Shown in pieces: positions 27,411 through 55,538 of a stretch of DNA of 64,000 nt (within the stretch, counting starts at the first letter, position 1; each line of letters starts with the position of its first letter). Source of the stretch: Halococcus sediminicola (GTDB lineage: Archaea; Halobacteriota; Halobacteria; Halobacteriales; Halococcaceae); contig NZ_BBMP01000001.1 of NCBI RefSeq assembly GCF_000755245.1, forward strand, positions 62,001-126,000, given 5' to 3'. The notes below the pieces were generated by a model. The model saw only the letters and a list, made by a program, of their open reading frames with translations, was not told where the DNA came from and did not search any database. The position numbers and the translations under genes are program-made.

Positions 27411-28562
27411 TCAGTCGTAGAGGTGACGCGCGACGACGGTCCGGTTGATCTCATTTGTTCCCTCATAGATCTGAGCGCCCTTTGCCTCCCGCATGAACCG
27501 TTCGACGGGGTAGTCTTTGGAGTAGCCGCGTGATCCGAGCACTTGGACAGCCTCTATAGCACCCTCCATTGCGGCATCGGAAGCGAAGGTTTTTGCGATG
27601 GCTGCATCCTGGGTGACCCGTTCGCCTGCATCAAGTTTTGCTGCAGCGCTATACGTTAGTAACCGTGCCGCCTCCAGATCCATTTTCATATCAGCGAGTT
27701 TGAATGATATGCCTTGGTTTTCGCGGATCGGTTCGCCAAACTGTTCGCGTTCATCAGCAAATTTCGCACTCTCATCGAGACAGCCCCGGAGAATACCCGT
27801 TGATTGGGCGGCAACACCCAACCGACCGATATCGAGCGCTTCCATGATGTATCGGAACCCGCGGCCTTCCTCGCCAACTAAATTCTCGATAGGCACCCGG
27901 AGGTTCTCATATTTAACCTCGTTTTCGACAACGGCACCGCCTTCCATGCAAGGAATATCGCGGACGAATTCGATCCCATCGCGCTCTTTAGGGTTTGGGA
28001 CGCCGATGATGCTTACGTCGTCGTGATCACCGGTGTTGTCGGTCCGAGCAACGACGAAGATCAGGTCCGCGACCTCTCCGTGTGAGGTCCAGACCTTGTG
28101 ACCATTGATAACGAACTCGTCGCCATCGCGTTCAGCGGTGGTTTCAAGCGCGTTCGCGTCGCTGCCGGCTTGCGGTTCGGTGAGCGAGACGGCGGTCACC
28201 TGGTTCTGGGTGAAGATGTCGGTCAGCCACTCCTCGCGCTGGCGTTCACTACCGAACTTCTGGAGGGTGTGGCCTATAAGCGACCCCGAAAGCGAAACGA
28301 CCCCCGCCGGAATCTTCCAGATCCGACAAAGTTCCTCGATGGTGACGACGAATGACCGATAATCTCGCCCCTCGCCGCCGTACTGGTCCGGGATCGTTAC
28401 TCCGTATAGACCCGCATCACCAAGGTCGTCAATGAGGTCAAGGGGGAACTCTCCTCGGCCTTCATACTTGTCAACGACCGGCGCGACTTCCTGTTCGGCG
28501 AACTCTCTGACTCGTTGTCGGTACTCCTCGTGTTCTGATTCAAGTCCGATGTGCCCTGTCAT
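27411..28562 (-). CDS. Acyl-CoA dehydrogenase 1
   Basis: A 383-aa FAD-dependent acyl-CoA dehydrogenase of normal length. GVTIPDQYGGEGRDYRSFV, the substrate/FAD loop TAVSLTEPQAGSDANAL, INGHKVWTSHG, DEREQFGEPIRENQGISFKL, VQVLGSRGYSKDYPVERFMR and AKGAQIYEGTNEINR are all present. The final segment holds the catalytic-base region: EGTNEI carries the Glu of the short/medium-chain class. Upstream in-frame sequence is basic nonsense, so MTGHIGLESEHEEYRQ was taken. Catalyses alpha,beta-dehydrogenation of an acyl-CoA, passing electrons to ETF. Sits between a crotonase and the amidohydrolase. Confidence 0.92.
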   Translation of the reverse strand: MTGHIGLESEHEEYRQRVREFAEQEVAPVVDKYEGRGEFPLDLIDDLGDAGLYGVTIPDQYGGEGRDYRSFVVTIEELCRIWKIPAGVVSLSGSLIGHTLQKFGSERQREEWLTDIFTQNQVTAVSLTEPQAGSDANALETTAERDGDEFVINGHKVWTSHGEVADLIFVVARTDNTGDHDDVSIIGVPNPKERDGIEFVRDIPCMEGGAVVENEVKYENLRVPIENLVGEEGRGFRYIMEALDIGRLGVAAQSTGILRGCLDESAKFADEREQFGEPIRENQGISFKLADMKMDLEAARLLTYSAAAKLDAGERVTQDAAIAKTFASDAAMEGAIEAVQVLGSRGYSKDYPVERFMREAKGAQIYEGTNEINRTVVARHLYD

Positions 28563-28683
28563 AGTGTAGTCCTGAAATCGACTTCTACCATTGAGATGGC
28601 TGTACTGTCTTTCAGTGCAGCCAAGCTTATAACTATTGACCACCCGGGTTCTGATAGGAGAACAGACGGCAGTTAAAGTCCGG

Positions 28684-29502
28684 TTACCGTCCCGTCCACT
28701 CGGGTTCACGGTCCTCGGTGAACGCCGCAATACCCTCGCTTGCATCGTCACTGGAGAACGCGCCGATAAACAGTTCGAACTCGTGTTCGACGCCCTCGGA
28801 CAGTCCCATCCGGCTGCTTGCCTGGATGGCCTGTTTGGCATACGAGAGTGCGACCGGACTGTTCGCTGCAACTGCTTCGACGAACTCAGTGACGGCCTCG
28901 TTGAGGGTGTCTGGGTCAGCCACGCGCTCGATTAGTTTGATCTCAGCTGCCTCTGCGGCATCTATCATGTCGCCGCTGAGCACTAGTTCCATCGCTTTTC
29001 CTTGACCGACAAGACGAGGGAGTCTCTGTGTGCCGCCACCACCCGGAATCAGACCAAGTGTGATTTCCGGGAACCCGAACAAGGAGTCAGCCGAGGCGAT
29101 TCGGACGTCACACGCCAACGCGAGTTCGCATCCACCACCTAATGCGTGGCCGTTGATCTGTGCCACGGTTGGTAGGGGGTGATTCTCGATCCGTTCGTAG
29201 AGACGCGGTGGGCGCCGCTCGGACCGCTGCTCAAGCGGTGTCCGTTTTTTCATTTCGGCAACATCTGCACCGGCAACGAATGTGCTCGCCTCGTCGGATC
29301 CGGTCAGAACGATGACCCGGGCACGCGAATCCTCGATGGCTTCGAGTGCTTGCTCCGCTTCGGCGTTGAGGGTTGCGTTCATCGCGTTTCGCGCCTCTGG
29401 GCGGTCGAAGACGATTGTGACGGCGTGTTCGACCGGTTGATCGACCTCGACTCGGACATGCTCAAAGTTTGCATCGGTGGCTGCGAGGTCGTTGCTACTC
29501 AT
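28684..29502 (-). CDS. Enoyl-CoA hydratase/isomerase (crotonase) 1
   Basis: A 272-aa crotonase. It has RPEARNAMNATLNAE, the oxyanion-hole segment STFVAGADVAEMKKR (AGADV), INGHALGGGCELALACDVRI (the second oxyanion region with GGG), and PEITLGLIPGGGGTQRLPRL, in which the first Glu aligns with a catalytic Glu. Hydrates or isomerises an enoyl-CoA. First gene of the minus-strand set that continues with the acyl-CoA dehydrogenase and amidohydrolase. MSSNDLAATDA was chosen as start; the upstream extension overlaps non-coding DNA. Confidence 0.92.
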   Translation of the reverse strand: MSSNDLAATDANFEHVRVEVDQPVEHAVTIVFDRPEARNAMNATLNAEAEQALEAIEDSRARVIVLTGSDEASTFVAGADVAEMKKRTPLEQRSERRPPRLYERIENHPLPTVAQINGHALGGGCELALACDVRIASADSLFGFPEITLGLIPGGGGTQRLPRLVGQGKAMELVLSGDMIDAAEAAEIKLIERVADPDTLNEAVTEFVEAVAANSPVALSYAKQAIQASSRMGLSEGVEHEFELFIGAFSSDDASEGIAAFTEDREPEWTGR

Positions 29503-32178: not shown

Positions 32179-32562
32179 AGTGGTACAGTTTGACTCATCC
32201 TCATCATATATGTATCGCCGTGAGCGACATGGTGCAACACTGAATGTGATTTCCTGCTATATCCAAAAAATGATAGAAAAGGTATGGGTTTGCGAACAAA
32301 AATAATTTACAGAATGAGTAATGGTTGAGAGAGCATGGTCGTCCAATAGAATGGTGATGAGAGCGCAGAGAAGATTCGTGTTCTCGACAGTGAATTGGGA
32401 GGATTCCTGTCGCAGATTTATCCGAGTCGGTTCGGTTGGATGTGGTCGAACCGGCTAAGCGAAGAGGTGTCCAGTGTCTTAGGTACAGACGATTTGCTCA
32501 TTCTCAATCAGACAGCGCTGATATGACCTATGTTTATACCACCGCCCACATTCCAGAGTAGT
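32179..32562. other. Divergent promoter region between CoA ligase 1 and the MaoC pair
   Basis: AT-rich DNA with no gene. A TTTATA box at 32533-32538 serves the plus-strand MaoC operon. On the minus side an AT-rich TATA-like stretch (TATATATGA) lies just upstream of the ligase start, near 32205. Confidence 0.45.
32533..32538 (+). promoter_or_regulatory. TATA box of the MaoC operon
   Basis: TTTATA centred about 27 bases before ATG 32563; spacing fits a leaderless transcript and supports that start over the upstream in-frame ATG at 32530. Confidence 0.5.
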
Positions 32563-33021
32563 ATGGGGCGATCAAAGCTTGTGGGAACCGAGCTACCCTC
32601 CGGTAAGTATGAGGTCGAAGGCTGGAAAGCGCACCTTTGGGCGGATGCGACTAGGAACAACGAAGATGCATTCCGTTACACCAATGATGCTCAATCACCG
32701 GTGGGGACGAGTCAGCTTGTTCCCCACTCTATGTGCCAGCATATCGTCTTCGAAGCTACTGGTGGGATCAAACAGACGATGAGCCGGCTTACCGAGGACT
32801 GGGCGAGTGGGGCGGCCCTCGGCGGTCTCCGCGCCGACTTCCATGCTCCTATTGAAGTGGGTGAAACTCTCTACGTAGAGGGGGTTATCGAGAGCGTTGT
32901 CGAAAAAGAAGGATCTTCCGGTGAACTAACCATCGTTACCCATACTTATAGCGTCGAGACGACAGACGGAACGGCAGTGTACGACCTTGAGGTCGATATG
33001 GTTATCCTGGAGGATGCTTGA
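32563..33021 (+). CDS. MaoC-like hotdog protein, subunit without visible catalytic motif
   Basis: A 152-aa single hotdog-fold protein related to MaoC/FAS1-type dehydratases: WADATRNNEDAFRYTNDAQS, then VPHSMCQHIVFEATGG, ADFHAPIEVGETLYVEGVIE and the closing strands. The R-hydratase motif D-x-N-P-x-H-x-D is not present. It is followed one base later by a second hotdog gene that does have it, so the two probably form a heterodimer in which this chain shapes the substrate pocket. A TTTATA box 27 bases before ATG 32563 supports a leaderless start. Confidence 0.8.
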   Translation: MGRSKLVGTELPSGKYEVEGWKAHLWADATRNNEDAFRYTNDAQSPVGTSQLVPHSMCQHIVFEATGGIKQTMSRLTEDWASGAALGGLRADFHAPIEVGETLYVEGVIESVVEKEGSSGELTIVTHTYSVETTDGTAVYDLEVDMVILEDA

Positions 33022-33022
33022 G

Positions 33023-33442
33023 ATGTACTTCAAGGACCTTTCACCCGGTGACGAACTCGAGCCCCGAAGGGTCAGTGACCTCCGCGGAGACGACATGAAA
33101 CTGATCGCTGCGCTCCTACAGGATCCGTACCCGCCACACTATGATCGGCGACGGGCGAACGAACTCGGCTACTCCGGACTCCTAAACCAAGGACCAGCAA
33201 ACTGCTCGTATATGCTTCAGACAGTCGTACGCGAACTAGTATCGCCAGTTGATCTCCGAGGACTCGACTTTCGGTTTCACAACATGGTGTTTGAAGACGA
33301 AACAGTGACCGCGAGAGCAACCGTCGCGGAGACTCGGGTCGTTGACGAGGAAGGAATTGTTGTGTTCGAAGTAGCACTGAAAAAGACTAACGGCACCGTC
33401 GTGGTTGACGGGACGGTAACCGCTCGGGTGAAACGAAAGTAG
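33023..33442 (+). CDS. MaoC-like enoyl-CoA hydratase, catalytic subunit
   Basis: A 139-aa hotdog protein. LIAALLQDPYPPHYDRRRAN carries a D-P-Y-P-P-H-Y-D form of the hydratase motif, so the catalytic Asp and His are present; GYSGLLNQGPANCSYMLQ and DLRGLDFRFHNMVFEDETVT follow the family order. Starts one base after the preceding gene's stop. Expected to hydrate a 2-enoyl-CoA as the active half of a heteromer. The nearest concept is the two-chain MaoC hydratase of steroid side-chain catabolism (ChsH1/ChsH2), but similarity to that pair specifically was not tested. Confidence 0.85.
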   Translation: MYFKDLSPGDELEPRRVSDLRGDDMKLIAALLQDPYPPHYDRRRANELGYSGLLNQGPANCSYMLQTVVRELVSPVDLRGLDFRFHNMVFEDETVTARATVAETRVVDEEGIVVFEVALKKTNGTVVVDGTVTARVKRK

Positions 33443-37173: not shown

Positions 37174-38301
37174 TTAGACTAGGTCGGGTAAGCCGTTTTT
37201 CTTGAGAGCACTCGCGACCTGGTTTTTCTGTATCTCGTCAGTCCCGGCGGCGAGCCGCCGACCTCGTGCAAGACGGTAGAGATACTCCAGAGGATGACCT
37301 CGTTGATAACCATTCGCACCATGTATCTGCAAAGCCTCACTCACGACCCGTTCGGCCCGTTCGGTCGAGTAAAGCTTGGCCATCGAAGTCTCGAGCCGAT
37401 CCGGGATCCGTCCCTGGTCGTGAGCGGTGAGTGCTGCGCGGTAGGTCAGCAGCCGGGCGGCTTCGAGCTGTGTCGTCATATCCGCGAGCTTCCACTCGAT
37501 GCCCTGAAAGTCACCGATTGGCTGACCGAACTGCTCGCGTTGCTGTGCGTACTCGATAGCTTTTTCGAGACCATTACGCGCCCAAGAGTTGGCGAGCGTC
37601 GCACAGCCGAGCCGTTCCCAATTGAGTGCTTTTAGCTGCTCGACAAAAGCGTCCTTCCCGCGTGTTAGCACGTTCTCTTCCGGAACATCGACATCCTCGA
37701 ATCGAATCTGGCTCTGGGTTCCTCCGTGCATGTTGGTGTAGTGCTCTTGGACCTCAACCCCAGGCCAGTCGAATTCGACAACGACCGAGCCCAGTCCCTC
37801 TTCGAACTTCACCCAAACAACTGTAGCATCTGCGTGTGGGACATTGCTCACCCAAGTCTTCTCGCCGTTGAGGACAAGTCCGTTGTCGACTCGGGTGTTC
37901 ATCGACCCTACGTCCGAACCCGATTCAGGTTCCGAGATGGCAATCGCAATAAAATCCTCACCAGTCAGGACTGGTGGAAGATACTGGTCTTTTGCCGCCT
38001 CGGTCCCGAACATCTCGATGGCTCTCGGTGCAACCATCTGCTGGTTGTAGATAAACTCGGCAGTGTCTGGGCAGACACTCCCGACGGCCTCGATCGAGAG
38101 CATCGCCTCGAATTCGGTCATACCGCCACCGCCATACGCTTCGTCGAAATTAATCCCGAGGAATCCTCGATCGGCGAGTAATTCGACGTTTTCCCACGGT
38201 GGTTCGCCGTGCCACTCGAAGGCTTTCTCCGCGAACTGATCGCGTGCCATCTCTTCAAGGGAGGAGAGAATCATCTCCTGCTCGCCAGTGAGATCGAACA
38301 T
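37174..38301 (-). CDS. Acyl-CoA dehydrogenase 2
   Basis: A 375-aa acyl-CoA dehydrogenase: MFDLTGEQEMILSSLEEMAR, LGINFDEAYGGGGMTEFEA, IAIAISEPESGSDVGSM, LNGEKTWVSNVPHAD, QREQFGQPIGDFQGIEWKLA, LQIHGANGYQRGHPLEYLYR and GRRLAAGTDEIQKNQVAS. At the usual catalytic-Glu site the sequence is AAGTDEIQ rather than EGTxEIx, so the base is shifted or different, as in some specialised or heteromeric members. Last gene of the thiolase-HMGS/DUF35-SDR-dehydrogenase set on the minus strand. Confidence 0.9.
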   Translation of the reverse strand: MFDLTGEQEMILSSLEEMARDQFAEKAFEWHGEPPWENVELLADRGFLGINFDEAYGGGGMTEFEAMLSIEAVGSVCPDTAEFIYNQQMVAPRAIEMFGTEAAKDQYLPPVLTGEDFIAIAISEPESGSDVGSMNTRVDNGLVLNGEKTWVSNVPHADATVVWVKFEEGLGSVVVEFDWPGVEVQEHYTNMHGGTQSQIRFEDVDVPEENVLTRGKDAFVEQLKALNWERLGCATLANSWARNGLEKAIEYAQQREQFGQPIGDFQGIEWKLADMTTQLEAARLLTYRAALTAHDQGRIPDRLETSMAKLYSTERAERVVSEALQIHGANGYQRGHPLEYLYRLARGRRLAAGTDEIQKNQVASALKKNGLPDLV

Positions 38302-38380
38302 GTATACTACTCTCGACGGAGGCGGTACAAAAACCCATCGGGCAGGGAAAGGAGTCGTATGACTCCCTGAGATGCGTGAT

Positions 38381-39175
38381 TCAGTTCTCGTGGAGCGAGG
38401 TCCGTGGGATACGGGGAATCCCTTCAGCAACGATCGTTTGGCCTTGGATATAGCTCGCGGCTGGACTCGCCAAAAACTGTGCTACTGTAGCGATTTCGTC
38501 GGGAAGACCGATCTCGCGGTCGACACGTTCTCGGCTGATATCGTCCGCCTCGATGTCTTCTTGACTCGCCAGTCCCTCTGTTGCAACGAGTCCGGGCATG
38601 ACACCGTTGATGCGAATGTCGTACTTTGCCCACTCATACGCCAGTGTCCAGGTCAATTTGTCCATTCCTGCTTTCGCCGCCGCGTAGGGGATCATCTGTG
38701 GCGCCCCATCGCGGGCGGCGACACTGGAGACATTGACGATTGTCCCACCGTCGTTTTCGCGCATCCACTCACCAACGACCTGTGTGCAGTTGAACGCCCC
38801 ATTGAGATTGATGTCGACGATGGTCTGCCATCCATTTTGGCTGATCTCCTCGAAGGGAGCCATGAAACTTGCCCCAGCATTGTTGATCCACACATCGATC
38901 GGTCCGAGCGTCTCGGTGGTTTCCTCGACTAGGGCCTCGATTGCGTCCCAGTCCCTGATATCACACTCGATAGGGAGCGCGTCACCCCCAGGGCGTTCAT
39001 TGATCGCCGTTGCGACTGGTTCTACGTTCTCTCTCGACCGAGAGGTCACAACAACGTCGAGTCCCTGGTCGGCAAATCGTTCGACGATCGCTCGACCGAT
39101 ACCCGAAGACGATCCCGTCACAACGGCCGTCGATCCCTCGATCTGAAACTCCTCCACATTCATCTCTGAGTCCAT
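38381..39175 (-). CDS. Short-chain dehydrogenase/reductase 1
   Basis: A 264-aa classical SDR. The cofactor motif is TGSSSGIG (residues about 21-28), followed by NNAG, VNVSSVAARDG with the catalytic Ser, and YAAAKAGMD with the Tyr-x-x-x-Lys pair. An Arg-rich VVTSRSRENV after the second strand suggests NADP(H). It oxidises or reduces a hydroxyl/keto group on a CoA ester or alicyclic intermediate. Start at MDSEMNVEEF; an internal ATG four codons later is also possible. Encoded between the HMGS/DUF35 fusion and acyl-CoA dehydrogenase 2. Confidence 0.9.
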   Translation of the reverse strand: MDSEMNVEEFQIEGSTAVVTGSSSGIGRAIVERFADQGLDVVVTSRSRENVEPVATAINERPGGDALPIECDIRDWDAIEALVEETTETLGPIDVWINNAGASFMAPFEEISQNGWQTIVDINLNGAFNCTQVVGEWMRENDGGTIVNVSSVAARDGAPQMIPYAAAKAGMDKLTWTLAYEWAKYDIRINGVMPGLVATEGLASQEDIEADDISRERVDREIGLPDEIATVAQFLASPAASYIQGQTIVAEGIPRIPRTSLHEN

Positions 39176-39223: not shown

Positions 39224-40672
39224 TCAGCTCACGCTCGCTTCGTCTGTAGGGGCGACTTTGAATCCGTATCGAGTAACGCCCTCTTGAGTGTAGATCCGGC
39301 GGATCGTTGCCTCAACCCGGTCGCCGACAGACAAGTCGTCCGGGTCAGCCTCAAGTACGAACGCAGGCGCACTCACCGAATCACCGTCCGGTCCGTCAAA
39401 CGAAACGATCCCGGTCGCGTAGGCTCCACCGTACTTCGTTTGGAGTTCAGCAAATTCAGGCGGTGCGCCGCCTTGAGCGATTACAGAGAGTGCCTCGAGC
39501 GTGCCTGATCGCGAGAGCGCGACCGAATCATACCCCACCGATGCACGACAAGACGAACAGACACCCGTTGGTGGAAAGTTCAACTCCTCGCATTCTGGAC
39601 ATCGACCTGCTTCGAGTCGGTAGCGCTGTGCGATCGACCGCTGCCATGTGGGAATGCTTACATATCCTCCACCACCTTCTGGCGCTCCAGACGTGACGTC
39701 ACCACGGAGACGGACATACTCTGCAAACGAGAGCTGGCGGCTACCCCCGATGGCCAGATCTGTCGGCGGCGATCGGTCTTGACTCCTCTCGAGCAGGAGT
39801 AGTGCCGCCGTTGCACCACTTCCGTACCCCGCGACCAGCACCCGGTCGGCACCGTCTGCGATGGCCGACGCTAGTGCAATCGGGACTCCAGCGGTGCCGG
39901 CATCACCGATTTCGTCGGCGACTGTGGCGGCAGCGACGGTTTCTTTATCCACTCCGAGCGGTCCAGTTGCCCGGTAAGGAATCGCAGCGTCAGGGGCGTG
40001 GATTGCTGCGGCCGCCACTTGGCTTGGATCGTAATCAAGTTGTGATGCTGCGCCTGTGAGTGCTCGTGAGAACGACTCCCGTTCGTAAGATGTGACGTCT
40101 AAACTATCGACTGTCTCGGAGCCTCTGTTTCGGAATCTCGTTCCAGGATATGGAATCGCGTACTCCGAGACATCGGAAATAGCAATCGGGGCTTCGGGTT
40201 CAAGGACGAACGCGGCTGCACCGGCACCGGCAGCGTGTTCGATGGCGTCGTCGGGGTCACCATGGGGACAATCACTCGCGACTACGAGCGTCCGTCCCAT
40301 CGAACGCCCCCCTTCGACAAGACACTGTGCCCCGGCGGCAGTAGAGCCAGTGACGATGGCCCTAGTAGCCGTTTCCGGGATAGCAAGCATTGCGCCGAGC
40401 TTAGCGGTGAGATCCTCCTCGGCGACGGGTGGGGTCGTGCTCGCGAATAGGAGTTTATCAATATCGCCACCCTCGATGCCGGCTGCCGTCAGCGCGCGGG
40501 TTGATGCCTCGTATGCCATCGTGATTGCATCTTCGTCGGCGGCCGGAACTGCCTTGGACGAAACGCCGCGCGCTAGGAACTGTCCCCATCCCTCGCGGAG
40601 TTCCGACGCCGGGATCCAGGTGTCAGGTATGTACGCACCAATACCGGCGATCCCGCTCTCGATTACGGTCAT
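39224..40672 (-). CDS. HMG-CoA-synthase-like domain fused to a DUF35 Zn-ribbon/OB domain
   Basis: A 482-aa two-domain protein. Residues 1 to about 310 form a thiolase-superfamily (HMGS/KAS III-like) domain: GIAGIGAYIPDTWIPASEL, LLFASTTPPVAEEDL, VVASDCPHG, AAIHAPDAAIPY (His225 of the HxP-type motif), DEIGDAGTAGVPIAL and VLVAGYGSGATAALLLLE. Where HMG-CoA synthase has its catalytic Cys the chain reads VTGSTAAGAQ (about 107-116), so the nucleophile is missing. Residues about 350-482 are a DUF35 unit with Cys358, Cys361, Cys372 and Cys375 as Zn-ribbon ligands, then an OB fold. Its start overlaps the stop of the thiolase gene (ATGA). In archaea, separate thiolase, HMGS and DUF35 proteins form a complex; here two are fused, and the synthase-like part is probably non-canonical. 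Confidence 0.85.
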   Translation of the reverse strand: MTVIESGIAGIGAYIPDTWIPASELREGWGQFLARGVSSKAVPAADEDAITMAYEASTRALTAAGIEGGDIDKLLFASTTPPVAEEDLTAKLGAMLAIPETATRAIVTGSTAAGAQCLVEGGRSMGRTLVVASDCPHGDPDDAIEHAAGAGAAAFVLEPEAPIAISDVSEYAIPYPGTRFRNRGSETVDSLDVTSYERESFSRALTGAASQLDYDPSQVAAAAIHAPDAAIPYRATGPLGVDKETVAAATVADEIGDAGTAGVPIALASAIADGADRVLVAGYGSGATAALLLLERSQDRSPPTDLAIGGSRQLSFAEYVRLRGDVTSGAPEGGGGYVSIPTWQRSIAQRYRLEAGRCPECEELNFPPTGVCSSCRASVGYDSVALSRSGTLEALSVIAQGGAPPEFAELQTKYGGAYATGIVSFDGPDGDSVSAPAFVLEADPDDLSVGDRVEATIRRIYTQEGVTRYGFKVAPTDEASVS

Positions 40673-41844
40673 GGCTTCACCTCCGGTCCCTCGAAGATAT
40701 GAACTGATGCCGCGCCGCCGCTCCCACCGACATTGTGAGCCAATCCGCGCTCGGCGTCCTCGACTTGGCGCTCGCCAGCCTCGCCACGAAGCTGTTTGAA
40801 CATCTCGACCACTTGGCCAGCTCCGGTGGCACCTATCGGATGGCCTTTTGATTTGAGACCTCCGGAGGTATTGACCGGGATTCGTCCGCCGAGCGCTGTC
40901 TCACCCTCCTCTACGAGACGACCGCCTTTCCCCTGCTCGCAGAACCGAAGGTCCTCGTAGGCGACGATTTCGGCGATCGAGAAGCAATCATGTACCTCTG
41001 CGAAGTCGACGTCATCCGGGCCAACACCAGCCATTTCGTAGGCCCGGTCAGCAGCCGTCCGAGCAGCCGGGAGATTGGTGTAGGAGTCGCGCTGAAACAA
41101 ACCGATCGAATCACTAGCTGCCCCCACACCAGCGATTCGGATCGGTCGGTCGGTATACTCCTCTGCAGCATCCTCGCTGGCGATGATCGTGACCGCAGCG
41201 CCATCGGTCGTCGGACAACAGTGGTACAGCGTGAGCGGGTGGGCAATGATCGGTGCCTCCTCCGCATCTTCTAAGGAACATTCGAATCCGAGCTGTGCAT
41301 GGGGGTTCATCGCACCGTTTCGATGGCTCTTGACCGCAACGCGGGAGAGCTGTTCGCGAGTCGTCTCGTAGTTGGCCATATGGGCACTGGCGATTTGGGC
41401 GTAGACGCCGGCGAAAGTGGTGCCGGCCATTCGCTCCCATTCCATCTCACCGCTTACACCCAGCCAGTACGGCAGCGTTTCGGAGCTGAGGTCGTTCATA
41501 ATCTCTGTCCCGCCAGCGACAACTACGTCCGCCATTCCGCTTTTGACTGCCTGGACTGCATCGCGGATGGCATACCCTGATGCTGCACAAGCATTCTCCA
41601 ATCGAGTACAGGGGACTTTCGACAGGCCAACGTGCTCGGCAATAGCTGGCGCCGAGAGGCCGATCTGTCGCCCGCCAATCGACAGCATACCGATGTACGC
41701 CTCATCTACGTCTGCCGGTTCGATTCCTCCCGGAACCGTTTCCACTGCCGCTTCGTAGGCCTCACGGAACAGCGAGCGGTAGCTCTCGTCGGGAAACGAT
41801 CCAAAGTCGGTCTGAGCGGCTCCAATCAAGTAGGCATCTCGCAT
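40669..41844 (-). CDS. Thiolase, SCP2/acetyl-CoA acetyltransferase-type, catalytically complete
   Basis: A 391-aa thiolase with the full catalytic set: Cys86 in RLENACAASG, the HDCFSIAEIVAYEDL motif (His replacing Asn, as in SCP2-type enzymes) and the GHPIGATGAG His. The usual second Cys region is NVGGSGG, also as in archaeal SCP2-type thiolases. It makes or cleaves a 3-ketoacyl-CoA. First gene of a four-gene minus-strand operon, overlapping the HMGS-like/DUF35 fusion. It differs from the two thiolase-like genes at 50.5-52.8 kb, which lack these residues. Confidence 0.92.
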   Translation of the reverse strand: MRDAYLIGAAQTDFGSFPDESYRSLFREAYEAAVETVPGGIEPADVDEAYIGMLSIGGRQIGLSAPAIAEHVGLSKVPCTRLENACAASGYAIRDAVQAVKSGMADVVVAGGTEIMNDLSSETLPYWLGVSGEMEWERMAGTTFAGVYAQIASAHMANYETTREQLSRVAVKSHRNGAMNPHAQLGFECSLEDAEEAPIIAHPLTLYHCCPTTDGAAVTIIASEDAAEEYTDRPIRIAGVGAASDSIGLFQRDSYTNLPAARTAADRAYEMAGVGPDDVDFAEVHDCFSIAEIVAYEDLRFCEQGKGGRLVEEGETALGGRIPVNTSGGLKSKGHPIGATGAGQVVEMFKQLRGEAGERQVEDAERGLAHNVGGSGGAASVHIFEGPEVKP

Positions 41845-43626: not shown

Positions 43627-43945
43627 CCCTCGGTCGTCGACTGCAGTTCTCAATCCGAACAGCTCCCCGATAGCTCCGACGACCACGGCCTGATTTTGGC
43701 ATCCGTACATCGGTGAGCAGCCATTTTGCAGGCCGCTTCGGTATCCAACATCCATTTGACAAGCGTACTACTGACCATGTGAGCAAATGGAGAATCTCAC
43801 GGGCCATGCCCGAGGCAACTGCAGTACGGCCAACGAAAGGGCTGGATGGTCAAGTACTCACAAACTGGGTAACGCTGTTGTAGATGGCTCCCTCTTGAGA
43901 AAGAGAGGCGGGAACTTTATCTCCCCGACGGGTCTCGTTCGAGCT
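43627..43945. other. Spacer before amidohydrolase 2
   Basis: No gene. Contains the TTTATC-type TATA box at 43914-43920, about 28 bases before the amidohydrolase ATG. Confidence 0.4.
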
Positions 43946-44884
43946 ATGTCGAGGATCGTTGACGTGCATTCGCATCTATGGGCAGAGGACTGGCTCCCCA
44001 AGCGGTTTTGGGATGCGTTCGTGGACATCGCCGTCCGTCAAAACGAGAAACGAGGGAACACGGTCGATCCAGAGCGAATTCGGGAGTCGTACCTTCCGAC
44101 GTACTGGGACCCGACCGGTGAGAAACTACTCGAACTGATGGACGAAAACGTAATCGACCACCAGGTCGTCTTCGGGGTCGATTTCGGACTCGCATTAGGA
44201 GAGCCAGAGACCCCGATCCGGGAGGTCAACCGCAAAATAAGCGAGTTCGGTGCGGATAACACGGATCGAATTTCAACACTAGCAACGATCGATCCGCGCC
44301 GACCGGGTGCAGTCGACCATATAGAGACGGCAATCACAGACTGGGGAATGGACGGGATCAAACTCCACCCCACTGCGGGGTTCTATCACCATGATCAAGA
44401 GACCTACCGCCTGCTTGAACTCGCCCGCCGCCTCAACGTACCGGTGCTCACCGATTCGGGTCCGATTTTCGCACCCCTCTATAGCAAGTATTCACACCCC
44501 AACAACTTGGACGAGGTCCTCTCTGATTTCCCGGATCTCGACATTATCGCCGCTCATATGTCCTTCGAGTGGTGGCGGGACCTCCATGCGGTCGCGAACT
44601 CGAAGGTCAACACACGCCTTCATGTCGACGTTTCGGGCTGGCAGGAACGCTGCAAGGAACGACCGGAGGAGTTCGCGACCGCCGTCCGGCACCTGATGGA
44701 TGCCGTTGGGAGTGACAGGATGCTGTTCGGAACAGACGACCCGGCATTCTATCCCGTTCATCCAAAAGATGAATGGATCGGGAATATTCGTGCGCTAGCA
44801 AGCCGAGAGACCGATCCAACCTTCACGGACGAGGAGATCGAGAGCTTGCTCGGACAAAACGCAACGCGGCTGTTTGACTGCTAA
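43946..44884 (+). CDS. Amidohydrolase_2-family metal-dependent hydrolase/decarboxylase
   Basis: A 312-aa amidohydrolase_2 (ACMSD/gamma-resorcylate-decarboxylase-like) protein. The metal motif is intact here: IVDVHSHLWAEDW (HxH). Then DGIKLHPTAGFYHHDQETY (metal/substrate His), LDIIAAHMSFEWW (conserved His) and LFGTDDPAFYP (conserved Asp). The first ATG of the family match was used; upstream in-frame sequence is unlikely to be coding, and a TATA-like box lies about 28 bases before this ATG. Could hydrolyse or decarboxylate a ring-derived carboxylate activated by the neighbouring ligase. Contrast with the HxH-less relative at 26439-27299. Confidence 0.9.
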   Translation: MSRIVDVHSHLWAEDWLPKRFWDAFVDIAVRQNEKRGNTVDPERIRESYLPTYWDPTGEKLLELMDENVIDHQVVFGVDFGLALGEPETPIREVNRKISEFGADNTDRISTLATIDPRRPGAVDHIETAITDWGMDGIKLHPTAGFYHHDQETYRLLELARRLNVPVLTDSGPIFAPLYSKYSHPNNLDEVLSDFPDLDIIAAHMSFEWWRDLHAVANSKVNTRLHVDVSGWQERCKERPEEFATAVRHLMDAVGSDRMLFGTDDPAFYPVHPKDEWIGNIRALASRETDPTFTDEEIESLLGQNATRLFDC

Positions 44885-47105: not shown

Positions 47106-47558
47106 TCAGATAACCATCGGTTCTTCGACCCATCCCTCGTCGTATGGTGAGAGATACTTTGCATCGTACGTGAGTTTCTCGATGAACCACTCATCTTCGA
47201 CTTTGATGAACTCAATTTCGTAAAACCCGGCGAGCCACGCAGCGCCGATATCCTCGAGGTGCCCTAGATCGAGGAAGTGCCAGCGGCCCGTTGCAGTATC
47301 ACCATCCGTAGTGATCCAGGGGTTGATTCCAAGGTGGAATGAGTCGAGAATCCCCGTTTCGCCCTCGATGTACCCCTCAAGAAAGTCAGTGACTTCATCT
47401 CTGCCCTCGTAATAGCCGAAGTCGCCGTAATCGATGGCGCAATCGTCGTGGAGCAGTTCGAGAACTCCATCGAGATCGTGGTCGTCCATCCTCCGCATGT
47501 AGCAGTGCACTACGTTTGACACCGTAAGCACCGCCACTGGATCATCTACTTCTTGCAT
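47106..47558 (-). CDS. NTF2/SnoaL-like protein A
   Basis: A 150-aa cone-fold protein of the SnoaL/NTF2 superfamily: VVHCYMRRMDDHDLDGVLEL, HDDCAIDYGDFGYYEGRDEV, SFHLGINPWITTDGDTATGR and YEIEFIKVEDEWFIEKLTYD. Tyr and Asp in the first helix and the His of SFHLG are in the positions used by Tyr-Asp-His dehydratases of this fold (scytalone dehydratase, bile-acid 7alpha-dehydratase), so a dehydratase or isomerase role is plausible; catalysis is inference. Upstream of CoA ligase 3 and divergent from an SDR gene. Confidence 0.85.
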   Translation of the reverse strand: MQEVDDPVAVLTVSNVVHCYMRRMDDHDLDGVLELLHDDCAIDYGDFGYYEGRDEVTDFLEGYIEGETGILDSFHLGINPWITTDGDTATGRWHFLDLGHLEDIGAAWLAGFYEIEFIKVEDEWFIEKLTYDAKYLSPYDEGWVEEPMVI

Positions 47559-47803
47559 GGTGCAACCTAGCGTCACACTACCAAACGGCAAAAAGGTTGG
47601 GTTTTCGAGCCAACATTGTCAAAATGTCAAAGGTAGAAAGTTATTGCCGCCTCTCAGAATTCATGTCAAACACAACCTTTCCAAACTAGCTAAAGTGTTG
47701 GGCGAAGTGATACTCACACTCTCGTTCTGACGTTAGTGGCCCCGAAGATTAGGCGAAACAACTATGATGAAGGAAATCACAGGAGTATACGGAGAACCCA
47801 TCA

Positions 47804-48872: not shown

Positions 48873-49343
48873 TTATCTCTGCGGGAAAGTCTCGAGATCA
48901 GGCCATCCTTCCTCGTAATCGAGCGAATAGATGAAGCGAAAACGTAGGTCATCAATGTACCATTCCCCGTCAGTACAGTGGTATGCCTCATCGTATCGGC
49001 CCCAGCGGAAGCCGCCGCTTCCATCTTGGTGCGTGATAGGAGAAGTCACGTACCAGTGGCCCGTCGCAGTATCACCATTTACATCGATGACCGGATTGTG
49101 GACGACGTGGGCGGTAGCTTTGAGATTTGGCTCGATAAACTCGGTCGCGAAAGCGTGTATACCGTCATGGCCCTCGTAGGTCCCGAGATCGCCGTAATCC
49201 AGTGTAGCATTTTCTGTGAACAACGAGACCAACGCCTCCCAGTCGCGTTCGTCAACGGCATAACAGTACGCGAACCGGAGTTGTTCGATTTTGAAACGGT
49301 CCTCGATCCGGCGAAGGCGGTTTTTGACGTCTCGATCATCCAT
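48873..49343 (-). CDS. NTF2/SnoaL-like protein B
   Basis: A 156-aa SnoaL-type cone-fold protein, paralogous in outline to protein A: RRIEDRFKIEQLRFAYCYAV then DERDWEALVSLFTENATLDY, GDLGTYEGHDGIHAF, ATAHVVHNPVIDVNGDTATG, HWYVTSPITHQDGSGG and WYIDDLRFRFIYSLDYEEGW. Tyr26 and Asp31 in the first helix and the His pair of AHVVHN suit the Tyr-Asp-His dehydratase arrangement. Convergent with SDR 2. The SnoaL-SDR-SnoaL triplet resembles modules that modify alicyclic CoA esters. Confidence 0.85.
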   Translation of the reverse strand: MDDRDVKNRLRRIEDRFKIEQLRFAYCYAVDERDWEALVSLFTENATLDYGDLGTYEGHDGIHAFATEFIEPNLKATAHVVHNPVIDVNGDTATGHWYVTSPITHQDGSGGFRWGRYDEAYHCTDGEWYIDDLRFRFIYSLDYEEGWPDLETFPQR

Positions 49344-50469: not shown

Positions 50470-51639
50470 CTACCGACTCGTCGAGAAGATTGCCATCTGC
50501 TGGAACTGGCCGAGATTTGCGCCCCAAGACTGGACAGCACCGCGTTCCGCACCTTCGATTTGACGCTCGCCAGCCTCGTCCATCAACTGAAGGACGACCT
50601 CGGTGTGTCGAGACAGAGATGCACAGATCCCGGAGTTCGTCGCAAGCGTCCCGCCTGAGACATTGACCGGGAGTTTGCCGTCCCTAGCTGTGACACCATT
50701 GCGGACGAGGTGTTTGGCCTCCCCTTTCTCGCAAAAGCCCATTGCCTCGTACTCGATCATCTCGAAGGGAATGTAAGGATTGAACGTCTCCACGACATCA
50801 AAGTCCTCAAGCGGGTCTTCGACGCCCGCACGCTCGTAGACCCGGTCGGCGAGCGTCTTGAGCTTCGGGAACCAGTCCATGGTCCGGTAGCCCGTCTCAA
50901 AGGTGTTACTGATCGAGTCGATGTCCTCCACCCAGACGGGTGTATCGCAGTGCTCGTAGGCGGTGTCCTCCTCGGCCATCACCATCGCTGCCGCGCCAGA
51001 AGAGACCGGGCAGGTCATCGCCCGTCGCAGCGGCCAGCAGACCATCGGAGAGTCCAACACTTCCTCGACGGTCTTGCCCTCGTTGCGATGGGCGTACGGG
51101 TTCATTGCGGCGTTCTTGTAATTCTGGGCTGCGACTTTTGCGAAATCTTCGAGGGTGGCGCCCGAGATCTCCATGTAACCAGAGCTTGGCAGCGCGCCCA
51201 TTTGGATAGCCGTGACGAAGTTACGCTCGAACAGCGGGTCAGCGTTCGTGTTCATCACCGGCTGGGCTTCGACTACCGAGTCGAACGACGGTGAACCGTA
51301 GACGAGCGCCGTGTCGTATTCGCCCGAGGCGAGGTATTCATAGGCTACTTTCACGCCGCTTCCGCCAGCGGTTCCACCGGTGTTGATACTGATCACTGGG
51401 ATGTCGTCGCCCATTCCAGGGACCTCAAGAGTCCGCTCGACCCGAAACGTACCCTCGAAGCCGTCGACTGTACAGAACAGTGCTACGTCGATGTCGTCGG
51501 GATCGGCATTGGCGTGTTCCAGTGCGGCCGTGATCGCCTCGAAGGCCTGCTCCTCTTTCGACATGGTCGACATTCGGTAGTCAGTGAACGTACTGGGGTC
51601 GGAGTAGCCGACGCCGATCGCACCGACGTCCCGGGTCAT
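50470..51639 (-). CDS. Thiolase-superfamily protein without catalytic Cys/His, subunit A
   Basis: A 389-aa thiolase-fold protein (SCP2/Ltp2-like side of the family). Fold landmarks are present (YKNAAMNPYAHRNEGKTVEE, SSGAAAMVMAEED, YEAMGFCEKGEAKHLV, NVSGGTLATNSG). The nucleophile position, NACAASG in true thiolases, reads SINTGGTAGGSG (about 84-95), with no Cys. HDCF is replaced by ETFNPY and GHPxGATG by TNSGICAS. So Claisen chemistry by the standard mechanism is not possible. It overlaps subunit B by four bases and both follow a DUF35 gene, the arrangement of Ltp2/ChsH2-type retro-aldolases and related C-C lyases. Confidence 0.87.
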   Translation of the reverse strand: MTRDVGAIGVGYSDPSTFTDYRMSTMSKEEQAFEAITAALEHANADPDDIDVALFCTVDGFEGTFRVERTLEVPGMGDDIPVISINTGGTAGGSGVKVAYEYLASGEYDTALVYGSPSFDSVVEAQPVMNTNADPLFERNFVTAIQMGALPSSGYMEISGATLEDFAKVAAQNYKNAAMNPYAHRNEGKTVEEVLDSPMVCWPLRRAMTCPVSSGAAAMVMAEEDTAYEHCDTPVWVEDIDSISNTFETGYRTMDWFPKLKTLADRVYERAGVEDPLEDFDVVETFNPYIPFEMIEYEAMGFCEKGEAKHLVRNGVTARDGKLPVNVSGGTLATNSGICASLSRHTEVVLQLMDEAGERQIEGAERGAVQSWGANLGQFQQMAIFSTSR

Positions 51640-52775
51640 GCCGGCCCTCCTTCAAGGACGACCAAGGCGTCTGTCCGTGCAGGCTCTCCCAAGTGCATGT
51701 CGTTGTCAGCTAAGAGCACGCAGTCGGCAGACTGTCGACCGAGATCGCCCTGGATCTGCTGGCAGGCCGCGATAGCGCGGTAGACACCGCCGGAGTTCGG
51801 CGGACTCGTCGCCAGTGGACCACCCGAAGTGTTGATAGGAAGCGAGCCGTCGATCGCCGTCGTGTTGTCGGCAACTAGCGACGGTCCATCGCCCTCGTCA
51901 CAGAATCCTAGCGCCTCGTAGCTGAGGAGCTCGAACGACGGCGCATAGGTGGCTATCTCGGCGGCGTCAATGTCGGCAGCGTCGATTCCCGCCTCGTCGT
52001 AGGCGATTGCTGCAGCGTCCCGCAGCGTCGGCTGGCGGAGCCGACTTTCCATCTCTCGATACCAGTATTTCTCGGTGGCCATGCCTGTTCCAGTGATGTA
52101 ACTTGAAACATCGTCGAGTTCAGCTGCGGCTGCCTCACTAACCAACACGATTACAGCAGCACCGTAGGACATCGGCTCAAGCATCAGCTCCGTTAGTGGC
52201 CCAACGACCAAGTCCGAGTCCAGAACTTCCTCAGTCGAGTACCCCTCGCGACGGTGGGCATCGGGATTCTCCGCGGCAGCTTCGTAGTTCTTGGCAGCGG
52301 TGGCTGCCAAGTCTTCCCGGGTGACGTCGGATCCGTCGAGATAGTTCTGAGTGAAGAAACCGTACGACTGGCGGTTGTTCATCCCAAACGGTCGGTGGTA
52401 GAGGGCTTCATGCGACGACCAGCTCAACATCGTCGGGTCAGCGGTTACCGAGTCAGCCGCAACGACCGTGACTACATCGGCCTTGCCAGCTCGGATCTTC
52501 GCTCTGGCCTGGTGGATTGCCGCTCCGCCGCCACTCTGGAGCCGCATAATTGGCTTGTTGTACGCCGCGGCGGTCGCAACCTTCTGACCGTCACTGATGG
52601 CGGCGCCATCGTAAGGATCCTGACCGGTGAACATCACGCTGTCCAGGTCTTCACGAGTGACGCCAGCGTTATCGAGAGCCGCCATGTTCGTCTCCAAGAC
52701 CAGTTCGTTGCCTGATTTGTCCGTCTCACCAGCGAAACCGCTCGTAGCGTAGCCAGCGATCGCAACGTCACTCAT
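51636..52775 (-). CDS. Thiolase-superfamily protein without catalytic Cys, subunit B
   Basis: A 379-aa thiolase-fold protein: IAGYATSGFAGETDKSGNEL, KNYEAAAENPDAHRREGYST, SYGAAVIVLVSEAAAAE, LLSYEALGFCDEGDGPSLVA and LPINTSGGPLATSPPNSGGV. The usual active-site Cys segment reads MRLQSGGGAAIHQA (Cys replaced by Gly, about residues 81-84) and HDCF is replaced by a Tyr-containing ATYAPSF. It forms an operon with a DUF35 protein (42 bases upstream) and subunit A (four-base overlap). Heteromer formation between A, B and the DUF35 protein is likely. The reaction is probably retro-aldol or acyl-transfer C-C cleavage of a CoA ester. Confidence 0.87.
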   Translation of the reverse strand: MSDVAIAGYATSGFAGETDKSGNELVLETNMAALDNAGVTREDLDSVMFTGQDPYDGAAISDGQKVATAAAYNKPIMRLQSGGGAAIHQARAKIRAGKADVVTVVAADSVTADPTMLSWSSHEALYHRPFGMNNRQSYGFFTQNYLDGSDVTREDLAATAAKNYEAAAENPDAHRREGYSTEEVLDSDLVVGPLTELMLEPMSYGAAVIVLVSEAAAAELDDVSSYITGTGMATEKYWYREMESRLRQPTLRDAAAIAYDEAGIDAADIDAAEIATYAPSFELLSYEALGFCDEGDGPSLVADNTTAIDGSLPINTSGGPLATSPPNSGGVYRAIAACQQIQGDLGRQSADCVLLADNDMHLGEPARTDALVVLEGGPA

Positions 52776-52817
52776 CGGCCGTATCCTCCATGGGGTGAGT
52801 TATCCGTGTTCTCCATC

Positions 52818-53315
52818 TCATTCAACCAATCGCCAGTGGTCCATATCAAAGATATTGCCGTCGCGGTCGTCGGACCACACCGGCTCCACCTCGTCACCCT
52901 TATTGAGTTTGTCGACTAGGTCCATCGGTTCTTCGTACTCTAGTTCCTCGATGAAGTGCATCATGCAAATGGTAGAGTCGTCGATGCGGATAACACCGGT
53001 CACGTACGGCGGTTCCGGCAACCCCTCGAACTGAAAGAAGCACACGGTATAACTCTCGAGCACACCGTGTTGCTCGACCTCGATCCACTCATCGGTCTCA
53101 ACATAACACTCAATACACACCGACTGAGGCGGCACGAACACATCTCCGCACTCGGGGCAAGCCTTGCCAAGGATCTGTTTGTTTTCGAGCGCCTCGAAGA
53201 ATCGGCGATTGGTCTCTCCGATGTTTAGAGAGAAATCAAGGTCCCAGTGGAACGGGTACTTGTATTCCCCGTGTACTTCGTCCGTTCCCACGGACTGGCT
53301 AAGTTCGTCTGTCAT
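52818..53315 (-). CDS. DUF35 (Zn-ribbon/OB-fold) acyl-CoA-associated protein
   Basis: A 165-aa DUF35 protein. An N-terminal helix region (NIGETNRRFFEALENKQILG) precedes a rubredoxin-like Zn ribbon with Cys53, Cys56, Cys67 and Cys70 (KACPECGDVFVPPQSVCIEC), then an OB fold with SYTVCFFQFEGLPEPPYVTG and NKGDEVEPVW. DUF35 proteins bind thiolase-fold partners and channel CoA intermediates (as shown for archaeal thiolase/HMGS and for steroid aldolases). First gene of the three-gene operon with the two Cys-less thiolase homologues; the same domain appears fused at 39224-40672. Confidence 0.9.
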   Translation of the reverse strand: MTDELSQSVGTDEVHGEYKYPFHWDLDFSLNIGETNRRFFEALENKQILGKACPECGDVFVPPQSVCIECYVETDEWIEVEQHGVLESYTVCFFQFEGLPEPPYVTGVIRIDDSTICMMHFIEELEYEEPMDLVDKLNKGDEVEPVWSDDRDGNIFDMDHWRLVE

Positions 53316-53755
53316 TATAGCGGGTTAAGCCTCGGTAAGAGTCTATAAAAATCTTTTCCATAGGGTGATTTCACACTCACTTCGAACGATTGTTGCTAGA
53401 CGTAACTGATCTACGTTCAGCGATCAGTTGTTGAGATTCCGGTAATGATCTGCTTGCTGACCTCGCCAGCTTTCTATAGACCCGATCCCATCGCCTCTTG
53501 CCCGTGAACGAGATAGCCGATATCGTACTCGCCGGTCGGTATCGACGAATCACCGACGCAGAGCCAAGAGACAAAAGACTCGGCCAGACGAACGGAGTCA
53601 CGTGTGTGCATTAGGTCGCCAACTACCCGGTACCAAAAGAGATAACTAGACTGGAAGACAGTACCAACGTATGTCTGTGTACGAGTCTCACAGCCGAACG
53701 GTGACCTGTACTCGAAGGGAGCAAGTTAGGTCGGTTTCTGGGGGTGTGTTCGGAG
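53316..53755. other. Divergent intergenic region before the LLM oxidoreductase
   Basis: No supported gene. A 45-codon minus-strand frame at 53474-53611 (MHTRDSVRLAESFVSWLCVG...) looks coding-like but matches nothing I know; it may be the end of a lost gene. Confidence 0.35.
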
Positions 53756-54706
53756 ATGAGCGGTAGCGTAGGTGAAGTCGACTTCGGCGTAATGTTGACC
53801 GCAGCGAGTAACGACTACGGACTAGAGGAAGAGGAGATTCCGTCAGCGGTTCGGCACCTAGCGACGACCGCTGAGGATGCCGGCCTCGACGCAGTGGTCG
53901 CGGGCGACCATGTGGCCTATCCTGAAGACATCCCAACCGACTACGAGTACTCAAAAACAGGTGAACCCCCCTTCGATACAACGACACCGATCTTCGATGT
54001 CTTTCAACTTTTCTCGTACCTCTCGGCCATTACCGAGGAGATTACACTCGGAACGAACATCCTCTCGGTTCCGTATCGTCACCCAGTTCTGCTGGCGAAA
54101 AACTGCCTGACCACACACGCGCTCTCAGAGGGCCGGTTCGAACTGGGCGTCGCACCCGGCTGGCTCTCCTCGGAGTTTGAAGCGCTTGGGATTCCCTTTG
54201 AGGAGCGCGGCGGCCGAACTGACGAGTTCCTTGAGCTGTTTGAGCGCATCCGAGATGAGGAGATCGTGGGATTTGATGGAGAGTATCACTCCTTCGAACC
54301 GCTCGGGTTCTACCCTAACCCAGACGAACCGATCCCGATTCTGGTAGGCGGGAAATCCGGCGCGTCGATTCGGCGCACCGCCGAGTACGGAGACGGTTGG
54401 ACGACGATTTGGGACAAACCTAATGATATGAGCGAGACCCGCGACCGCATCATGCGTGCCTGGTCTGACTTCGACCGGGACGGCAAACCCGAGATGGTTG
54501 TCACCCGCCCGATTCACGTCGGAACGGACACCGAGATGAATACCGATAGGTTGTTCGTCGGTGAGGCCGAATCCATTGCTGACGACATTGAGGAGTACGC
54601 TGAGGCGGGAACGACCCGGATCAACCTCGACTTCTATACAACGGACGTAGAGGCCCAAGCAGAGCAACTCGAACGCATCGGTGACCGTGTCCTCGACGCC
54701 TTGTAA
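53756..54706 (+). CDS. LLM-class (luciferase-like) F420-dependent oxidoreductase
   Basis: A 316-aa TIM-barrel oxidoreductase of the luciferase-like family: GLDAVVAGDHVAYP, ITLGTNILSVPYRHPVLLAK, TTHALSEGRFELGVAPGWLS, FEALGIPFEERGGRTDEFLE, PIPILVGGKSGASIRRTAEY, GDGWTTIW. The AGDHVAYP and GxAPGWLxxEFxALG patterns are those of F420-dependent members rather than FMN monooxygenases. npdG, encoded 36 kb to the left, can supply F420H2. In this pathway it could reduce or oxidise an alicyclic CoA intermediate. ATG 53756 was taken in preference to an upstream GTG at 53744. Confidence 0.88.
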   Translation: MSGSVGEVDFGVMLTAASNDYGLEEEEIPSAVRHLATTAEDAGLDAVVAGDHVAYPEDIPTDYEYSKTGEPPFDTTTPIFDVFQLFSYLSAITEEITLGTNILSVPYRHPVLLAKNCLTTHALSEGRFELGVAPGWLSSEFEALGIPFEERGGRTDEFLELFERIRDEEIVGFDGEYHSFEPLGFYPNPDEPIPILVGGKSGASIRRTAEYGDGWTTIWDKPNDMSETRDRIMRAWSDFDRDGKPEMVVTRPIHVGTDTEMNTDRLFVGEAESIADDIEEYAEAGTTRINLDFYTTDVEAQAEQLERIGDRVLDAL

Positions 54707-54874: not shown

Positions 54875-55297
54875 CTACGGTTCAGGAACTCCCTCCGGTA
54901 GGTCGTCTACGCTTTCGAGTTCATCTTCAAAAATGACGTCATCCGGGAGATTCGGCGCCCCGACAGCGAACACTCGCATTTCAGTCTCCGCAATGAGGCG
55001 ACGCCAAGGACCAGGTTCTACCACCAGAGTATCGCCGGCCCGGAGGGCAACTTCTTCGTTGCCAATTTCAAGGCATCCCTTGCCCTCAACGACGAAGAAC
55101 AGTTCTTCTTGGTTGATTTGCGTGTGGCGACGGACTGCTTGACCCGGTTGGTACAGGAAATAATTGTATCGCATCTTTTCGGGACGGGGCTCGCCGGCAG
55201 CGCGAAGTTCGTATCCCAGAGTCTTGACCGCTGGTTCCTTATCGGACTGGGTACGGTCAGGAACGTCCTCAAGATTAACTTTCGAGTAGTGTCCCAT
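54875..55297 (-). CDS. Single-domain cupin protein
   Basis: A 140-aa cupin. The metal-binding strand block is QPGQAVRRHTQINQEELFFV (the G-x5-HxH-type motif with the second His replaced: HTQINQEE), followed by GCLEIGNEEVALRAGDTLVV, PGPWRRLIAE and VFAVGAPNLPDDV. The reading frame opens 48 bases further upstream; MGHYSKVNLEDVPD was preferred because similar archaeal cupins start so. Role unknown; small cupins often bind or isomerise sugar or keto-acid ligands. Convergent with the LLM gene and facing the AT-rich zone. Confidence 0.82.
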   Translation of the reverse strand: MGHYSKVNLEDVPDRTQSDKEPAVKTLGYELRAAGEPRPEKMRYNYFLYQPGQAVRRHTQINQEELFFVVEGKGCLEIGNEEVALRAGDTLVVEPGPWRRLIAETEMRVFAVGAPNLPDDVIFEDELESVDDLPEGVPEP

Positions 55298-55538
55298 ACT
55301 CTCGGCCTCATCATCGAGTAGTAAAAACCTAGGGTTTCGTTCCATCACTTTGCGTTGGTGGTTAGCAGCCCATCCGTTGAGCCACTATCTGCTGTAAACC
55401 ATTACTTTTGCTGTCGAATTCTACTAAATAGATTTCAAATAGGCTTCCAACAAAGAGGTAGTCAATCGTCAACGGAACTGATAAAACAACCTCGATAACT
55501 CGGTCAAGCCATTTGCTTGGTTCCTATTAATATCCGAT

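Follow-up and report, generated by a model that had tools for sequence, protein, structure and literature searches.

A group of three genes on the minus strand is found at 50470-53315 of a 64,000-nucleotide stretch of the Halococcus sediminicola genome (contig NZ_BBMP01000001.1, positions 62,001 to 126,000), hereafter called the window. This trio, a candidate archaeal lyase of coenzyme A (CoA) esters, is transcribed in the order D-B-A. D (52818-53315) encodes a stand-alone DUF35 protein of 165 amino acids (aa), B (51636-52775) encodes an Ltp4-type thiolase-fold protein of 379 aa, and A (50470-51639) encodes an Ltp3-type thiolase-fold protein of 389 aa; A and B were assigned by using Pfam, alignments, structural models and trees. 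Genes A and B share 4 bp, and 42 bp separate B from D. A first-pass annotation of this DNA had described two overlapping genes preceded by a stand-alone DUF35 gene, and its coordinates proved exact.

The DUF35 protein comprises an N-terminal helix region, a zinc ribbon and an OB fold, and Pfam detects the latter two, in that order, as zf-ChsH2 and OB_ChsH2_C. The ribbon (C-x2-C-x10-C-x2-C, CPECGDVFVPPQSVCIEC; residues 53-70, encoded at 53106-53159 on the minus strand) has the spacing of the canonical C4 type (PMC12329534). The nearest solved chain is 3irb, followed by the DUF35 chain of a complex of thiolase and 3-hydroxy-3-methylglutaryl-CoA (HMG-CoA) synthase (6esq) and by ChsH2 (6ok1). The ratio of nonsynonymous to synonymous substitution rates (dN/dS) is approximately 0.07 for all three genes in the comparison with the nearest relative, which indicates purifying selection. 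Because the reading frames are also intact and the gene order is kept in eight haloarchaeal loci (in one of them with D last), decay into pseudogenes is ruled out.

Both A and B match Thiolase_N and Thiolase_C_1 in Pfam. Single-chain AlphaFold2 models have a predicted local distance difference test score (pLDDT) of 83 each and predicted template-modeling scores (pTM) of 0.88 (A) and 0.87 (B), and both models adopt the five-layered thiolase fold. The model of A matches 6hsp (Z score 51.0, root-mean-square deviation 2.0 over 361 residues), and also BbsB (50.5), Ltp2 (46.7) and Sal (43.5). The model of B matches 6esq (Z score 47.1, root-mean-square deviation 2.5 over 368 residues). The best matches of both models are SCP2-type and DUF35-associated thiolase folds, and classical thiolases score only approximately 36. 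By predicted fold, A and B are members of the thiolase superfamily; the fold by itself is uninformative about the reaction. Because no Ltp3/Ltp4-type pair is among the solved-structure matches of A and B, the halophilic trio would be a useful structural target.

Active-site columns were read against the complete, cysteine-containing SCP2-type thiolase encoded at 40669-41844 on the minus strand, which serves as an internal control (ENACAASG, HDCF and GHPIGATG), and against other cysteine thiolases. In A, the nucleophile segment is NTGGTAGG, and Gly89 aligns with the nucleophilic cysteine. The HDCF column of A reads FNPY, with Phe286 for histidine and Pro288 for cysteine, and its GHPxGATG column reads TNSGICAS, in which Asn335 replaces histidine and one residue before it is deleted. 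In B, the nucleophile segment aligns as SG---GG, a loop three residues shorter at the nucleophile position; the HDCF column reads ATYA (Ala275 and Tyr277), and the GHPIGATG column reads TSPPNSGG, with Ser324 for histidine. Six cysteines are left in A and three in B, none of them at a catalytic column. Both chains lack the nucleophilic cysteine of NACAxSG and the histidine and cysteine residues of HDCF and GHPxGATG that characterize SCP2-type thiolases, and a thiolase identity is ruled out on active-site residues.

The first-pass annotation had named this alignment as the place where its claim of two chains without a catalytic cysteine could fail. No cysteine occupies the nucleophile column of either chain, so the claim stands, as does the statement that HDCF and GHPxGATG are also changed. 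The replacement of the nucleophile segment by glycine that it had described is borne out for A, but B carries a three-residue deletion instead of a glycine substitution.

The two chains are conserved to different degrees. All 19 of the A and Ltp3-type sequences compared share Gly89, Pro288, Asn335 and His184, and these residues and the TGGxxGG loop of A are nearly or fully invariant across two domains of life. The motifs of B-type chains, unlike those of A, vary widely. This difference suggests that A contains a rebuilt active site and that B may be an inert partner.

Apart from the window, the D-B-A order is found in G073 (L028), on a Natronosalvus amylolyticus plasmid (L029), on plasmid pHTUR01 of Haloterrigena turkmenica (L030/L119), and in Halorarius litoreus (L034), G386 (L141) and G253 (L142). 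A Natrinema gelatinilyticum plasmid (L118) carries the genes as B-A-D, which brings the haloarchaeal total to eight loci. The trio is rare, with B present in 6 of 391 Halobacteria genomes. Bacterial trios are plasmid-borne, have the order B-A-D and occur in Rhodococcus (L114-L117, L122 and L123), Simplicispira (L121) and Cupriavidus (L120 and L140). A search of genome contigs with A recovered one true ortholog, in Halorarius litoreus, and 79 bacterial cysteine thiolases, whose loci served as controls.

Some of these loci contain further thiolase-fold genes. Next to the Simplicispira trio (L121, 8617-9807) is a second such gene with YDHF and EAYIHG motifs, which is Ltp2-like and has its own OB-fold gene. 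In Natrialbaceae-type loci, an extra cysteine thiolase and a small DUF35 gene adjoin the trio (L029 13577-15288, L119 1014-2607, L141 11757-13306 and L142 7444-9113); the window has neither.

On a Tsukamurella plasmid, a gene for a 309-aa DUF35 protein is followed by two genes whose products match PRK07937 (593 bits) and PRK08313 (734 bits), in that order; L136-L138 also combine these two with a long DUF35 protein. We take PRK07937 to be Ltp4 and PRK08313 to be Ltp3, based on the Rv3521-ltp4-ltp3-like arrangement and on protein lengths. The Tsukamurella order matches the Rv3521-ltp4-ltp3 gene arrangement (PMC6429209). In NCBIfam, A scores 213.5 bits against PRK08313 (cut-off, 514) and B scores 70.9 bits against PRK07937 (cut-off, 419). 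Because these scores are below the cut-offs, neither chain belongs to the curated families, and both are classed as relatives, not orthologs, of Ltp3 and Ltp4. PRK06065 and PRK06066 are probably archaeal relatives of the pair; PRK06066 scores above its cut-off in 1 of 14 control genomes.

Phylogenetic trees split A, B, Ltp3 and Ltp4 from the cysteine thiolases, Ltp2 and PRK06158-type proteins, with a value of 99.7 in the Shimodaira-Hasegawa-like approximate likelihood ratio test (SH-aLRT). The same split has support of 100/99 in a careful tree from which most long branches were omitted. The pairing of A with Ltp3 (support 82/89) and of B with Ltp4 within this group is suggestive. In agreement with the tree, A and Ltp3, and mostly Ltp4, share derived marks, namely proline for cysteine in HDCF, and a one-residue deletion and asparagine for histidine in GHPxGATG. 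The first-pass annotation had regarded two different cysteine-less chains with one DUF35 protein as an unusual and potentially new three-part design. This arrangement is indeed rare in haloarchaea, but it is not new, because it recurs in Rhodococcus, Cupriavidus and Simplicispira, and ltp3/ltp4 are described in the literature as a heteromeric aldol-lyase (PMC6678751). The trio is an archaeal relative of a known bacterial two-chain arrangement.

A second gene pair, absent from the first-pass annotation, lies on the plus strand. The gene at 32530-33021 encodes a MaoC-type hydratase subunit without the catalytic dyad (FAS1_DH_region), and the overlapping gene at 32987-33442 encodes a MaoC hydratase subunit with a D...H dyad (QDPYPPH). 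The dyad is present in one subunit only, as in heteromeric MaoC hydratases, and the make-up of the pair matches that of ChsH1-ChsH2 (PMC11321319). Six of the eight haloarchaeal loci contain a MaoC pair, at a distance of approximately 1 to 24 kb from the trio, and in Rhodococcus loci L115, L122 and L123 the pair lies immediately next to the trio. None of the 79 cysteine-thiolase loci contains a MaoC gene; these controls belong mostly to one bacterial thiolase lineage and hence are not independent. The product of the dyad-bearing subunit is expected to be the beta-hydroxyacyl-CoA that the trio would cleave, and the linkage fits a hydration followed by a retro-aldol step.

A retro-aldol reaction has precedent in this superfamily. 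Retro-aldolase activity is proven for Ltp2 and Sal, each of which is bound to a DUF35 domain, and their catalytic base is a tyrosine at the position of the HDCF histidine (PMC12329534). Ltp2 uses Tyr294 as base and Tyr344 as acid, and Sal uses Tyr302 and Cys304, respectively (PMC12329534). Both enzymes are fed by MaoC hydratases, and the substrate of Ltp2 is a tertiary alcohol (PMC12329534, PMC11321319). Ltp3-Ltp4 is called a heteromeric aldol-lyase that acts on sterol side chains with a branch at C24 (PMC6678751).

Kinship with Ltp3 and Ltp4, linkage to MaoC genes and the loss of thiolase residues together make a retro-aldol step the most likely activity. The trio is therefore probably a CoA-ester retro-aldolase, an archaeal aldol-lyase of the Ltp3-Ltp4(-DUF35) type with A as catalytic chain, B as inert partner and D as zinc-ribbon clamp, although considerable room for doubt is left. 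In the proposed mechanism, A, B and D would form one heteromeric enzyme, in which A and B dimerize via the thiolase fold and D uses its zinc ribbon and OB fold to clamp the thiolase chains. Beta-hydroxyacyl-CoA supplied by the dyad-bearing MaoC subunit would be split by retro-aldol chemistry into a ketone or aldehyde and a short acyl-CoA. The active site would be in A, where a glycine-lined pocket might occupy the site of the former nucleophilic cysteine and Asn335 would take the place of the GHP histidine, and B would probably be inert and help to shape the substrate pocket. This interpretation retains the DUF35-associated, non-thiolase chemistry of the first-pass annotation, since the catalytic residues are lost and a DUF35 gene adjoins. 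A lyase of the retro-aldol type also appears to be the best form of its proposed new C-C lyase, given the MaoC link and the Ltp3/Ltp4 kinship, but the arrangement itself already exists in bacteria.

Several observations weigh against a retro-aldolase. At the position of the Ltp2 and Sal base, A has Phe286 and B has Ala275, and at that of Sal Cys304 they have Pro288 and Tyr277, respectively; in the alignment, neither chain thus has the Tyr/Tyr or Tyr/Cys catalytic pair of these enzymes. Support for joining B with Ltp4 (63/78) is not significant alone. The activity of Ltp3-Ltp4 itself is taken from work as cited in reviews (PMC6678751). No MaoC pair was found in the read flanks of two of the eight haloarchaeal loci, and 17 kb separate the pair from the trio in the window.

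Because phenylalanine (A) and alanine (B) occupy the base position, the exact mechanism of Sal and Ltp2 is not transferable to the trio. Phenylalanine is found there in each of the seven haloarchaeal A chains examined and in all but one of the six from Rhodococcus. The tyrosine is kept in all four Ltp3 sequences and in the A chains of Simplicispira, Cupriavidus and R. qingshengii VT6. A search of A for a substitute base found only subclade-specific polar positions, such as N86, T131, N132, D165 and Y289. Judged from these positions, N86, T131, N132 and Y289 are candidate replacement bases, or else the reaction differs. A tentative and rather doubtful extension is that a subclade comprising the haloarchaeal A chains and most of those from Rhodococcus has lost the tyrosine base and might cleave a non-steroid CoA ester via other residues (Asn86, Thr131-Asn132, Tyr289, Asn335, or residues from B). 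If so, the trio would be a mechanistically new thiolase-fold lyase in an undescribed haloarchaeal pathway.

The absence from A of an evident base for a beta-hydroxyl group would also suit a decarboxylase or other CoA-ester C-C lyase that stabilizes a thioester enolate without cleaving beta-hydroxyacyl-CoA. Such an enolate could be bound by Asn335 and the glycine loop of A, and TbSLP, an SCP2-thiolase-like protein, decarboxylates malonyl-CoA with a kcat of 0.005 per second (PMC12329534). However, TbSLP is now itself proposed to be an aldolase (PMC12329534), and the linkage to a MaoC hydratase suggests that the substrate is a hydroxyacyl-CoA. We regard a reaction of this kind as improbable, even though it is the strongest competitor of the retro-aldolase. 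Slightly less plausible still is a non-catalytic role, in which A and B would be scaffolds or carriers of CoA esters that join the hydratase to the complete thiolase. Every thiolase catalytic residue is lost, B is degenerate with widely variable motifs, and the name Ltp originally stood for lipid-transfer protein. However, the conservation of Gly89, Pro288, Asn335, His184 and TGGxxGG in A across two domains of life exceeds the needs of a scaffold, and Ltp2 and Sal are enzymes despite being equally non-thiolase. Least plausible is an enzyme that forms C-C bonds or transfers acyl groups (by aldol or Claisen condensation, or by Friedel-Crafts acylation like PhlABC), because, although thiolase-fold reactions are reversible and the complexes PhlABC and MucABC (thiolase-fold, KASIII-like and DUF35 proteins) are among the fold matches of A and B, PhlC-type acyl transfer is taken to need the nucleophilic cysteine that both chains have lost (a C88S variant is among the matches of A), and the cluster, with its CoA ligases, acyl-CoA dehydrogenases, hydratases, 3-hydroxyacyl-CoA dehydrogenase, thiolase, ATP-binding cassette (ABC) importer and IclR regulator, looks degradative.

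The divergent neighbor of D, at 53744-54706 on the plus strand, encodes an F420-dependent LLM-class oxidoreductase (TIGR03619, 195.9 bits; cut-off, 166.9) that is conserved in L029, L141, L142 and L144. Its location beside D is comparable to that of Rv3520c, which adjoins Rv3521-ltp4-ltp3 (PMC6429209). A similar oxidoreductase gene is near the trio in Rhodococcus loci L115 and L123.

The conserved cluster includes two acyl-CoA dehydrogenases on the minus strand, at 27411-28871 (where the open reading frame starts too far upstream and the domain begins at approximately residue 110) and at 37174-38430. Other conserved neighbors are two crotonases, a 3-hydroxyacyl-CoA dehydrogenase, CoA ligases, two Amidohydro_2 proteins, SnoaL-like and cupin proteins, and a thiolase with an HMG-CoA-synthase-like-DUF35 fusion protein. 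The Amidohydro_2 proteins (26439-27308, minus strand; 43787-44884, plus strand) are of the decarboxylase/hydratase type, are conserved alongside the trio in most of the haloarchaeal loci and could hint at the substrate. SnoaL-like proteins (47106-47591 and 48873-49343, both minus strand) and a cupin (54875-55348) lie among the pathway genes and are kept in related clusters. The fusion gene (39224-40672, minus strand) overlaps the complete thiolase gene, and its product joins a domain resembling HMG-CoA synthase and KASIII to a C-terminal DUF35 domain. Its expected catalytic-cysteine segment reads S-T-x-x-G, as it does in five homologues. The fusion protein and the thiolase are possibly a fused, perhaps catalytically silent thiolase/HMG-CoA synthase/DUF35 complex, or are PhlA-like. 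No gene for ring cleavage or ring dehydrogenation was recognized among the annotated genes of the window, and no whole-genome search for steroid genes was made. Nothing relevant was found in the literature on steroid degradation in haloarchaea, and steroid catabolism in H. sediminicola seems unlikely.

If the trio is a retro-aldolase, the logic of actinobacterial sterol side-chain breakdown, a hydratase followed by a heteromeric aldolase, operates in haloarchaea. It would there serve an unnamed substrate within a conserved cluster that is plasmid-borne in several species. The trio also poses a puzzle for enzymology, namely how a thiolase-fold chain might cleave a C-C bond when it lacks both the thiolase residues and the tyrosine base that its closest proven relatives use, and what role the degenerate second chain has.

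Among known systems, the closest is Ltp3-Ltp4 (Rv3521-Rv3522-Rv3523 type), which likewise consists of two adjacent, overlapping and non-identical thiolase-fold chains that have lost the catalytic cysteine and histidine residues, with a DUF35 gene adjoining. In addition, an F420-dependent oxidoreductase is near both the trio and the M. tuberculosis locus. However, D is a single DUF35 protein of 165 aa, whereas L126 and L136-L138 have a protein of approximately 300 aa. Also, A has Phe286 where Ltp3 has tyrosine, and B has a three-residue deletion where Ltp4 reads HVEMDAA.

Ltp2-ChsH2 (6OK1), which the first-pass annotation had cited as a precedent, shares with the trio a cysteine-less thiolase fold, glycine at the nucleophile position (in A), a DUF35 partner and a two-subunit MaoC hydratase. 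In contrast, Ltp2 is a homodimer with YDHF, its DUF35 domain is fused to a hydratase subunit, and it falls on the other side of the 100/99 branch. The retro-aldolase complex Sal-Shy (9MYR) also has glycine at the nucleophile position, a DUF35 partner and a coupled hydratase, but Sal is a homodimer with Tyr302 and Cys304 (YDCY), and its zinc finger is C3H1, whereas that of D is of the C4 type. The benzoylsuccinyl-CoA thiolase BbsAB (7PXP), the other precedent that had been cited, also combines a thiolase fold with a stand-alone DUF35 subunit. However, BbsB aligns with its nucleophilic cysteine (QSACSAG) and GHPIGASG intact and is a true thiolase, which rules out a BbsAB analogue.

Two archaeal systems are also comparable. 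The thiolase/HMG-CoA synthase/DUF35 complex (6esq; Z scores of 50.9 for A and 47.1 for B) has an active cysteine thiolase and an HMG-CoA synthase, and its counterpart in the window is 39224-41844, not the trio. ST0096 of Sulfolobus tokodaii (4YZO) is a thiolase-like protein whose nucleophile segment aligns as NTSGSGGS, without cysteine, but unlike A and B, it retains HD and GHPIGASG.

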